Assembly (NCBI GenBank): GCA_036559195.1 | Contig: DATBTN010000027.1 | Span: 1-55,668, forward strand | DNA: 55,668 nucleotides | Direction of reading: 5' to 3' | DNA from: Candidatus Baltobacteraceae bacterium | GTDB taxonomy: Bacteria > Vulcanimicrobiota > Vulcanimicrobiia > Vulcanimicrobiales > Vulcanimicrobiaceae | In this document: positions 47,003 through 55,668 of the stretch, piece after piece | How the letters are laid out: each line of letters begins with the position of its first letter | How positions within the stretch are numbered: the stretch's first letter is position 1 | Position numbers and translations under genes: made by a program | Notes under the pieces: model-generated | What the model saw: the letters and a program-made list of their open reading frames with translations, nothing else | What the model was told of the DNA's origin: nothing | Databases searched by the model: none

Positions 47003-47350
47003 GTGAATATCGATACCGACTATCGCGCCGCGATGAGCAGCATCGTGCCCGGCACCTTCGCGCCCGATATCGCGGGTTCGAACGCTCCGTTGACGCAGCC
47101 GCTCGACGGCGGCGTGGCCGGGGCGACGGGAGTCTCGTTCAAAGACACCGTGAAATCGATGCTCGCCGACGTCAACGACAAGATGGCCACCTCGGATCAG
47201 CTCAGCGCGGATCTGGCGACCGGCAAGACCAACGACGTCAATAAGGTCGTGACCTCGGTAGAAGAGGCGAATCTGTCGATGCAGTTCACGCTCGCGATCC
47301 GCAACAAGCTGCTCGATGCGTACACGGAAATTTCCCGGATGCAGATGTAA
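47003..47350 (+). CDS. fliE: flagellar hook-basal body complex protein FliE
   Basis: FliE links the MS ring to the rod. The 115-residue protein has VSFKDTVKSMLADVNDKMATSDQLSADLATGKTNDVNKVVTSVEEANLSMQFTLAIRNKLLDAYTEISRMQM, the whole length of the family domain, ending at the canonical RMQM/RMQI. The N-terminus (about 1-45) is longer and less conserved. It starts with GTG and closes the first flagellar gene block. A 157-base gap then holds a promoter and leader. Confidence 0.96.
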   Translation: MNIDTDYRAAMSSIVPGTFAPDIAGSNAPLTQPLDGGVAGATGVSFKDTVKSMLADVNDKMATSDQLSADLATGKTNDVNKVVTSVEEANLSMQFTLAIRNKLLDAYTEISRMQM

Positions 47351-47361
47351 TAGGCATCCCC

Positions 47362-47389
47362 TAAAACTCCCGGCAGAGTCTGCCGATAG
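47362..47389 (+). promoter_or_regulatory. sigma28 (FliA/SigD)-type promoter upstream of flgF
   Basis: TAAA (47362-47365), a 16-base spacer and GCCGATAG (47382-47389) match the sigma28/sigmaD consensus TAAA-N14-16-GCCGATAA/T at nearly every position. It lies 12 bases past the fliE stop and 119 bases before flgF, the largest gap in the flagellar block. It would drive flgF onward as a separate unit. Predicted from sequence only; strong by pattern. Confidence 0.65.
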
Positions 47390-47507
47390 TAGAAGAGAAC
47401 GCGGCCGGACTGCCCTTCGCACGGGGTGGGGGCCGCGGTGGAACCTGACCGATTGACGGTTCCACACGTACGTCAAAGTACAACCACACCGTGCGGAGGT
47501 TTTTATT
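47390..47507 (+). promoter_or_regulatory. structured 5' leader of the flgF unit
   Basis: Downstream of the promoter are two possible hairpins: GCGGCC...GGCCGC (47401-47436) and a 7-bp stem TGGAACC/GGTTCCA (47439-47464). Neither is followed by a T run, so they are not intrinsic terminators as they stand. A GGAGG binding site at 47495-47499 precedes the TTG start of flgF. I do not recognise a known riboswitch here; a regulatory role is inference. Confidence 0.35.
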
Positions 47508-48299
47508 TTGGTACGTGGGCTCTACACGGCAGCGGCCGGGGCACTCGTGGCGCAGTCGCAAGCGGACGTGATCGCGAATAATCTCGCGAACGTGAACACG
47601 AGCGGCTTCAAGCAGACGCTCTTGCAAGTTGCCTCGGCGCCGGAGATGGGCGTCTACCGCTTTCAAACCGAGCCCGGCCAGGACTCCGGCAAACGCACGC
47701 CCGGAATTCCGACGCAGCAATACGTCGGCGCGCTCGGCACGGGCTCGCAGGTCTACGATACGCCGGCGCAGTTCGGTCAGGGCGCGCTCGAGCAGACGGG
47801 CAACGATCTCGACCTCGCGATTCAAGGCGACGCATTCTTCGCGGTGCAGACGCCCGCCGGCGTTCGCTACACGCGCGACGGTCAGTTCGCGCGCGGCCCC
47901 CAAGGCGATCTCGTCACGATGGACGGTAACCGCGTGCTCGGCCGCAACGGCCCGATCGTTTTGCCGCCGGGTGAGATTCACATTGGGTCCGACGGTTCGA
48001 TCGCTGCGGGGGCGCGGCAGGTCGACCAACTGCGCGTCGTGCAGTTCGCGAATCTTTCGGCACTTCGCCCCGAAGGCGACAATCATTTCGCCGACACGGG
48101 CGCCGCGCGCCCGGCGCTGGCGACCACCTCGACCGTTAACCAGGGCTTCCTGGAGAAGAGCAACGCGAACGTGGTGCGCTCAATGGTCGATCTGATCACC
48201 GCGCAGCGCTGGTTCGAAGCCAACGAAAAAGTCATCCAAACCGAAGATCAAGCAACCGGCCTGGTCATTGCCAACGTCGGCCGCAGCACGGGCCAATAA
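47508..48299 (+). CDS. flgF: flagellar rod protein FlgF (FlgF/FlgG family)
   Basis: A 263-residue rod subunit. VRGLYTAAAGALVAQSQADVIANNLANVNTSGFKQ is the rod family N-terminus; GNDLDLAIQGDAFFAVQTPAGVRYTRDGQF and the C-terminal NQGFLEKSNANVVRSMVDLITAQRWFEANEKVIQTED are shared by FlgF and FlgG. I name it FlgF because it precedes a clearer FlgG and has the shorter, more divergent core. The TTG start follows GGAGG at a good distance. It is the first gene after the sigma28-like promoter. Confidence 0.9.
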   Translation: MVRGLYTAAAGALVAQSQADVIANNLANVNTSGFKQTLLQVASAPEMGVYRFQTEPGQDSGKRTPGIPTQQYVGALGTGSQVYDTPAQFGQGALEQTGNDLDLAIQGDAFFAVQTPAGVRYTRDGQFARGPQGDLVTMDGNRVLGRNGPIVLPPGEIHIGSDGSIAAGARQVDQLRVVQFANLSALRPEGDNHFADTGAARPALATTSTVNQGFLEKSNANVVRSMVDLITAQRWFEANEKVIQTEDQATGLVIANVGRSTGQ

Positions 48300-54491: not shown

Positions 54492-55668
54492 ATGCGCATT
54501 GCAAGTTCGACCATTTACAACGACCAAACGGCCTCGATTGACAATCTCGTCGCACAGCAGCAGCAGTACGGTGCGACGCTTTCAAGCGGCAAGCAGGTCA
54601 ACGTACCGTCGGACAACCCGACGGCCATCGCGCAAGACTTGAGCGTGCGCAGCGCTATTGCCCAGGAGAACCAAACCTCGACGAACGTCCAAAGTATATC
54701 GGCGGAACTCACGACGGTCGATTCGGCGCTTTCCTCCCTTTCGAACGTCATGCAGAAGGCGCGTTCGCTCGCGGTCGAAGGTGCGAGCGGTACGCTCAGT
54801 ACGTCGCAGCAGCAGGCGATTGCGAGCCAAGTCGATGGATTGCTGCAAGAGGCCATCGGTTTGGCGAACACGCAGTACGCGGGCAAGTACGTCTTTGCGG
54901 GAACCGCAAATCCGCAGCAGCAGCCCGTCGTCGCCTCGGGGCAGCCGGTCACGGCTGTCGTTTCGAGCGGAAATCTGAGCGCGCAATCGCAGGTGCTGCC
55001 CGACGGACAGACGATCGCGACCTCGCTCACGCTCCAGCAAGCCTTTAACTACGCCGCCCCCGACGGATCGCCGGACGTCTTTCAATCGTTGATAACGCTG
55101 CGCGACACGCTGGCCAAGGGCGCCATCGTCGATGCGAGCACGTCCTCGATCAATCGAGCGGGCACGGCGATTCTTCCGGCGGCATCGCTCAACTCAGCGA
55201 ATTTCCAGACCGCCGTCGGCGCGGATTCGACCGGTCAGATCTCGATCGACATCGCTTCGACGACGGCTCCCAACGGCGTCACGCTGACGTTCGCCCCCGG
55301 GCAAACGATCGCGGTGGTGATCGCCGCAATCAATGGTTCGGGAACCGGAGTAACGGCCGCCTTCGACCCCAAGGCCGAGCGCATTTCACTCACCTCGGCC
55401 GGCGGGGCGTTTCAGATCAAGGACGTTCCGAGTCCGGGCGCGGTGAACTCGGCGAATTTCGTGGCCGCGTTTAAGTTGAACTCGCAGGCCGATTTAACCA
55501 ATAATCTTACACGGCAGATCGGCGATGCCGATCGGGTCTTGCAGAGCGCCGTAAACGCCCGTGCCGTGCTAGGCGGTAACCTGCAAACGATCGCCAATAT
55601 CGGGGCCGCGACCGATTCTCAGGTCGTTAACAACACCAAGGTGCAGTCGGGCATCGAAGATGCCGATA
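54492..55668 (+). CDS. flgL: flagellar hook-filament junction protein FlgL (HAP3), 3' truncated by the window
   Basis: The open frame starts at the ATG at 54492 after a strong AAGGAGG and runs off the window end with 392 codons visible. It begins MRIASSTIYNDQTASIDNLVAQQQQYGATLSSGKQVNVPSDNPTAIAQDL, the FlgL/flagellin D0-D1 start (SGKxxxxPSDNP), and continues through GLLQEAIGLANTQYAGKYVFAGT, typical of FlgL. The final part (RQIGDADRVLQSAVNARAVLGGNLQTI) is the start of the C-terminal D1 helix, so only a few dozen residues are missing. It joins FlgK to the filament. Confidence 0.95.
   Translation, partial: MRIASSTIYNDQTASIDNLVAQQQQYGATLSSGKQVNVPSDNPTAIAQDLSVRSAIAQENQTSTNVQSISAELTTVDSALSSLSNVMQKARSLAVEGASGTLSTSQQQAIASQVDGLLQEAIGLANTQYAGKYVFAGTANPQQQPVVASGQPVTAVVSSGNLSAQSQVLPDGQTIATSLTLQQAFNYAAPDGSPDVFQSLITLRDTLAKGAIVDASTSSINRAGTAILPAASLNSANFQTAVGADSTGQISIDIASTTAPNGVTLTFAPGQTIAVVIAAINGSGTGVTAAFDPKAERISLTSAGGAFQIKDVPSPGAVNSANFVAAFKLNSQADLTNNLTRQIGDADRVLQSAVNARAVLGGNLQTIANIGAATDSQVVNNTKVQSGIEDAD

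Follow-up and report, generated by a model that had tools for sequence, protein, structure and literature searches.

The window analysed here, a stretch of 55,668 nucleotides, carries a flagellar operon and raises the question of what lies between its fliE and flgF genes, and how that gap would affect the genes behind it. By NCBIfam, the gene order is flgB, flgC, fliE, flgF, flgG, flgA, flgH-like, flgI and flgJ-like, and flgK then flgL complete the operon up to the contig end. The original prediction placed an almost perfect sigma28 site between fliE and flgF, followed by a leader with two hairpins, and suggested that the rod operon is thereby split and its distal part brought under late control. 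The site begins 11 bases after fliE ends, and 118 bases separate it from the TTG start codon of flgF (Table 1).

A sigma28-type site and the timing of the rod genes

The sigma28 (FliA/SigD) promoter consensus has a TAAA -35 element and a GCCGATAA -10 element, with a spacer of about 15 bases. At 16 bases, the spacer before flgF is one above this consensus, relatives have 15 or 16, and the site can be counted with the sigma28 class. The sigma28-like pattern alone is weak evidence, because the 2.48-Mb genome contains 18 instances of TAAA-N14..16-GCCGAT and 9 of the reversed pattern, an excess of merely about twofold. Matches with a 16-base spacer fall in three places, one of which is the flgF leader site while another lies directly before fliC. 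Among the 43 related flgF leaders from the same order of bacteria, the fold described below could be anchored in 41, and 39 of these 41 carry a sigma28-like site, compared with 0.09 of 41 for base-shuffled upstream sequences. The two leaders that did not score are G037, where 'none' reflects a false anchor and a site is visible by reading, and G028, where there is one mismatch. The site in the related leaders consists of a CTAAA- or TTAAA-type box (CTAAG in one), 15 or 16 bases, and NCCGA, and is mostly found 11-16 bases upstream of the RNA fold. A sigma28 gene is present in the genome (FliA_WhiG on contig C63, 254.5 bits against a cut-off of 189.6). Two of the checks proposed with the original prediction, a fliA gene in the genome and conservation of the site and stems among relatives, came out in its favor, the stems covarying as set out below. 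A sigma28-type promoter before flgF is well supported by conservation, and we infer that sigma28 would start transcription at the flgF leader.

Late control of the rod operon is a different matter. Conservation gives good support to the part of that claim that concerns a sigma28-type promoter and a structured leader suited to further control, but not to the lateness of the rod genes. No intrinsic terminator-like site was found on the plus strand between fliE and the leader or flgF, and read-through from flgB-flgC-fliE is therefore possible. If, in a hierarchy gated by FlgM, flgF and flgG depended on sigma28 alone, assembly would be expected to run into a deadlock. Among 20 flgF leaders from this order of bacteria, a fliE-like end lies at most 280 bases upstream in 9 (by reading); none was seen in the other 11, where the sigma28 site may thus serve as the chief promoter.

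At its far end (54492-55668) the window stops inside flgL, in sequence that recurs almost unchanged at the end of a second flgL on another contig of the genome (G000:C75), and this flgL repeat is probably the cause of the contig break. The second flgL is followed on C75 by fliW, csrA, a sigma28-like site and fliC.

Table 1. Features of the fliE-flgF region, in positions of the window
Feature	Position	Strand	Basis
fliE, upstream neighbor	47003..47350	+	NCBIfam TIGR00205
Sigma28-like promoter, TAAA (47362-47365), 16 bases, GCCGATAG (47382-47389)	47362..47389	+	sequence; conserved in relatives; equal spacing before fliC
Expected transcription start	47394..47400	+	predicted from the position of the -10 element GCCGATAG
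Conserved RNA core (P1, GGA internal loop, P2, P3)	47399..47468	+	R2 match, 61.4 bits, E 2.9e-10
P1 5' strand, pairs with 47431-47436	47401..47406	+	fold and covariation
GGA, 5' side of P1/P2 internal loop	47407..47409	+	alignment of 92 copies
P2 hairpin, loop holds pseudoknot 5' arm	47410..47429	+	fold and covariation
Pseudoknot 5' arm CCUUCGCACGG	47414..47424	+	complementarity
P1 3' strand	47431..47436	+	fold and covariation
P3 hairpin with 12-nt loop UGACCGAUUGAC (family consensus NGANYGAUUGAN)	47438..47465	+	covariation, loop conservation
Small variable hairpin GUAC-GUCAAA-GUAC, sequence not conserved	47468..47481	+	fold, alignment
Pseudoknot 3' arm CCGUGCGGAGG, with Shine-Dalgarno GGAGG at 47495-47499	47489..47499	+	complementarity
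flgF (TTG start), first gene past the leader	47508..48299	+	TIGR02490, 193.4 bits, over cut-off

A covarying RNA fold before axial genes

The window's leader folds better than 200 of 200 shuffled versions (z -3.47). It is structured, as predicted, but two hairpins proved too low a count, as the leader has, besides P1 with P2 and P3, a small variable hairpin and can pair at long range with the Shine-Dalgarno region. BLASTN matched it in 16 of the 60 genomes searched, its own included, and the flgF upstream regions of relatives hold the same pieces with altered stems (P1 GCGGC/GCCGC, an asymmetric internal loop, P2 and P3). A first model of the RNA, R1, was built from 20 sequences. Public genome contigs were scanned once with the loose pattern CGGCYGGAC-N10..24-GCCG-N7..16-GANYGATTGA, which took in neither the P2 nor the P3 stems; it gave 98 stretches, with 80 loci returned. 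Twenty of the loci appear to belong to the window's own group (records labelled Eremiobacterota among them), 17 lie before flagellar genes in other groups, and 43 have no visible flagellar context. The 17 come from Bacillota, candidate division FCPU426, a Bdellovibrio record, an Armatimonadetes-labelled record, a Nostoc-labelled record and an unnamed bacterium, and with these copies outside the phylum we rejected a restriction of the RNA to the window's phylum. The 'Nostoc sp.' contig (L141), which carries the RNA with FlgF- and FlgG-like genes, is likely a contaminant. A pattern match alone was likewise rejected as a sign of family membership, since 41 of the 43 context-less loci, scored as decoys with L127 and L139 left out, reach at most 24.4 bits with the second model, R2; only loci that fit the model were kept.

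Covariation shows a fold of P1, the GGA internal loop, P2, and P3 with its GA-rich loop. When 28 diverse copies are aligned without any use of structure (A3), pairing holds in 93.9% of cells and both partners differ in 118 cells (38.7 in shuffles and at most 32 in slid versions); the covariation score is 0.665 against at most 0.164 when slid. An alignment of 92 copies fitted to R2, which for that reason leans towards the structure, gives 16 pairs. Here 96.3% of cells are paired, both sides have changed in 450 cells (145.7 in shuffles), and the covariation score is 0.788 against at most 0.141 when slid. P3 has changes on both sides at 7 of its 7 aligned pairs. Unpaired bases are nearly constant, with the two G and the C of GGAC kept in 92 of 92 copies, its A in 91, and the three GA steps of the P3 loop in 91-92, although the copies were selected by sequence-based models, which favors such conservation. 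Compensatory stem changes and a constant position before functionally related genes together speak for a structured cis-regulatory RNA.

In the window's phylum, 44 of 149 genomes match R1 and 46 match R2. R2 also matches 189 of 398 Bacillota drawn evenly and 35 of 290 genomes from the phylum to which the Bdellovibrio record (L147) belongs. Flagella need not be present in many of the genomes sampled, and the Bacillota scan scored 13 candidates per genome, so that misses are expected. A FlgE, FlgF or FlgG type gene follows 65 of 67 score-picked copies (47 best-scoring and 20 from the lower end of the Bacillota matches listed, not a random draw), three of the 65 being FlgE genes named by eye (L287, L297 and L299). 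For the 20 lower-scoring Bacillota copies, from the end of the matches listed, an axial gene stands behind every one. The two non-axial copies are one at a contig end (L267) and one before another gene (L271). In this last case (G510:C100:6428-6488), the next gene does not look flagellar and the contig ends 140 bases on. Upstream of the 67 copies, and by motif only, a TIGR02530-like frame occurs in 34 and a FlgF/FlgG-like end in 17. Copies in G133 precede fliK (PF02120) and flgN (PF05130), with flgK next by reading.

The window's own genome holds a second copy (C39:3280-3341), behind flgD and between TIGR02530 and flgE (the latter named by reading). A search of 5.3 kb of that strand revealed no sigma28-like site for this flgE copy, and thus the RNA is not tied to sigma28. 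Two unlinked copies in one genome, before flgF and before flgE, point to a shared trans-acting factor. The same observations bear on the simplest account of the locus, a promoter with an ordinary leader conserved by common descent. The sigma28 site is indeed conserved in the same leaders, but the fold recurs before flgE in the same genome where there is no such site, and it occurs in other phyla with stems that have changed in a compensatory manner. Loops that stay constant over changing stems are not expected of a neutral leader, and we find this account, already disfavored on these grounds, hardly credible.

The placement of many copies invites another explanation, in which the RNA would be a processing or stability element, a cleavage mark that shields the operon message downstream of it and raises hook or rod protein over the products of upstream genes. 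The RNA often sits inside an operon between TIGR02530 and flgE, where stoichiometry changes sharply, and this would suit such an element. In the window's clade, however, the fold starts within about 10-20 bases of the promoter-like site, so that cleavage would be unneeded, and neither conserved unpaired bases nor pairing with the Shine-Dalgarno is expected of a plain protective stem. We judge a processing role improbable.

Some copies depart from the usual arrangement. One found with R1 in G009 (G009:C12:260674-260785; L103:2175-2286, minus strand) combines a sigma28-like site, the leader RNA and the pseudoknot before a gene that by reading encodes an NHL-repeat-like lipoprotein, and from this copy the cassette of sigma28 site and leader seems portable. 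In L315 (G357:C283), a second GGCUGGACC piece lies about 60 bases past the RNA copy, before flgG, and is possibly a tandem or decayed copy.

Complementarity to the ribosome site and proposed control of translation

The P2 loop of the window's leader is complementary to a segment that includes the Shine-Dalgarno (Table 1). Over the 86 of 92 copies that passed gap and ORF filters (L040 entered with a wrong start codon), the leaders' own pairing averages -11.16 kcal/mol against -9.46 for swapped arms, and 0 of 1000 swaps were as low. The flgF clade that includes the window averages -22.4 kcal/mol, against -11.2 with arms of other clades. Inside clades, the leaders' own arms are not clearly ahead of swapped ones: in five sets 105 to 763 of 1000 swaps reached as low a value, and in the two Vulcanimicrobiota sets 51 and 54 of 1000 did; much of the overall signal therefore lies between clades, and the advantage within them is small because close relatives share sequence. 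At one pseudoknot position, counted in the 36 of 40 leaders that could be parsed, the pair is G-C in 15 and A-U in 14, and it forms in 32 of 35 against at most 30 in 500 shuffles, while its neighbors, the four central pairs, are invariant in f1. The related family f2 has quite different arms that are still complementary, again on the Shine-Dalgarno site, and in many Bacillota copies GACCUC in P2 faces GGAGGUC. Pairing with the Shine-Dalgarno is weak or absent in several clades and not evident in Bdellovibrio-type copies. Given these differences, the core is common and the route to the ribosome site varies. In Bdellovibrio-type copies (e.g. L282-L296), the Shine-Dalgarno often lies in a hairpin loop, GACGC-AAGGAG-GCGUC, a different expression platform.

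From its sequence and distribution, the flgF leader is likely to be a cis-regulatory RNA that turns translation on and off, widespread in flagellated bacteria and read by a trans-acting partner, for which TIGR02530 is a candidate. Here, the leader would be transcribed from the sigma28-type promoter, and it folds into P1, the GGA internal loop, P2, and P3 with its conserved GA-rich loop. Its 5' region, complementary to the Shine-Dalgarno, would pair with it and thereby shut off the ribosome site of the rod or hook gene that follows. A trans-acting partner would then read the internal loop with its GGA together with the loop of P3, shifting the balance between open and closed forms and allowing synthesis of rod and hook proteins to follow assembly. 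TIGR02530 would be a leading candidate for this partner, and a small-molecule ligand the main alternative.

Under that alternative the leader would be a riboswitch, the RNA alone binding a small ligand, such as a second messenger of the motile/sessile transition, through the GGA and P3 loops and gating the Shine-Dalgarno. A small, compact fold whose unpaired bases hardly vary (GGA; GA-N-Y-GA-U-U-GA) is consistent with this idea, as are expression platforms that vary between clades and the presence of several unlinked copies in some genomes. Riboswitches usually control metabolic or transport genes, though, and there are none among the targets here, which are confined to rod, hook and hook-associated functions, bar the one copy before the NHL-repeat-like lipoprotein gene. 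In the leaders and loci scanned, the RNA also has no match to the Rfam models of cyclic-dinucleotide riboswitches, including those for cyclic-di-GMP. A riboswitch is therefore possible but, in our view, unlikely.

The GGA motifs raise a further option, a CsrA/FliW-type leader as in hag, where CsrA would bind GGA motifs and block translation. CsrA is present in the genome (87.6 bits) in the order flgL-fliW-csrA-fliC (flgL, fliW and fliC by reading), and the leader has an invariant GGA in its internal loop and GGAGG at the ribosome site. The hag/fliC leader under CsrA-FliW resembles the present one in its flagellar structural gene, its sigma28 promoter and translational control at the ribosome site, but it has a different fold and needs GGA in hairpins. 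The invariant GGA here lies in an internal loop and not in a hairpin loop, which sets the RNA apart from CsrA leaders, and the 12-nt P3 loop offers GA, not GGA. Moreover, the ribosome-site GGA is lost in 3 of 20 aligned leaders (GCGGGGG in G006, G010 and G011), and the P1-P3 fold would be unnecessary for CsrA binding. We therefore hold CsrA/FliW control of this kind to be very improbable. The hag/fliC CsrA-FliW system is reported to sense flagellin (PMC6529632).

The gap between fliW and csrA (L072:1657-1775, minus strand) is itself GC-rich and hairpin-rich and may be another structured leader; scored with R2, it gave no match.

A candidate partner and known flagellar RNAs

TIGR02530 (with PF12611 at its end) is a small 'flagellar operon' protein that is often encoded directly before flgE copies of the RNA. 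In the window's phylum 49 of 149 genomes have it, as do 280 of 398 Bacillota; the 14 control genomes, which include Escherichia coli and Bacillus subtilis, have none. RNA-positive genomes carry it in 43 of 47 cases in the phylum (R1 and R2 pooled) and 187 of 189 in Bacillota (Fisher, 3.6e-26 and 8.3e-39), a co-occurrence that is partly confounded because both are flagellar. With 13 candidates scored per genome, 93 of the 280 TIGR02530-positive Bacillota have no RNA match, and four genomes of the window's phylum (G055, G057, G058 and G059) have flgF-like genes and neither the RNA nor TIGR02530. The AlphaFold model of the TIGR02530 domain, with pLDDT >90 over most of the domain, has the order beta-alpha-alpha-beta-beta-beta-alpha-beta. 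The best 50 matches from a structural aligner are mostly RelE/HigB/ParE chains with Z at most 6.1, and Z below 8 can reflect a common arrangement. Foldseek returned no match to the model at E<=0.001, and a search of solved structures for TIGR02530 returned one chance match only. The predicted structure suggests that TIGR02530 is RelE-like and perhaps RNA-binding. The literature searched for it yielded nothing that looks like a study of its function, and it is known only as a family with no assigned function.

A broader and more speculative reading would follow from this resemblance. A RelE-fold protein, kin to toxins that cleave mRNA on the ribosome, may have been tamed into a dedicated flagellar RNA-binding regulator, TIGR02530, that reads one fold on the flgF, flgG, flgE, fliK and flgN-flgK messages, which cover rod, hook, hook-length and hook-junction functions; the result would be a multi-phylum, post-transcriptional checkpoint of the flagellar axis, above and older than the local sigma28 hierarchy. 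We hold this reading only tentatively and consider it doubtful. Should the leader act as we propose, flagellar assembly in several phyla, Bacillota included, would be timed by a shared RNA element besides sigma28/FlgM transcription, and TIGR02530, known merely as 'flagellar operon protein', would gain a function. Such control would also explain how the cell can make hook and rod subunits in metered amounts, and it would provide a new class of regulatory RNA open to direct tests in culturable Clostridia and Bacillales.

A conserved core with a clade-specific expression platform and a pseudoknot to the ribosome site is known from riboswitches and from leaders of the ribosomal-protein type. The RNA described here shares the anatomy of such leaders with a Shine-Dalgarno pseudoknot, but its core sequence and fold match no Rfam family. 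At the gathering scores of Rfam release 15, the window's leader, three related loci and 16 loci from other groups had no match. Relaxed searches yielded chance-level matches only (E<=5 for the window's leader, E<=3 for L141 and L120, E<=10 for L124 and L263), and membership of a known Rfam family was rejected, chance matches being of the kind of Giardia U4 at 19.4 bits against a cut-off of 100. Full-text searches of the literature, a 2017 survey that reportedly covers 224 candidate RNAs apart, returned no description of the RNA. In the main text of two papers (PMC11109978 and PMC8632094), 'flg' and 'flagell' are absent. As far as Rfam and the searched literature go, the leader RNA is a new family of structured leader.

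The nearest by name are Termite-flg RNA (RF01729) and flg-Rhizobiales RNA (RF01736), candidate structured RNAs, probably cis-regulatory, that are listed in Weinberg 2010 (PMC2864571) and take their names from flagellar genes. The five leaders searched gave no covariance-model match to either at E ceilings of 3 to 10, nor did the whole loci at gathering scores. Each of the two is given there for one habitat or one order (PMC2864571), whereas the family described here spans several phyla.
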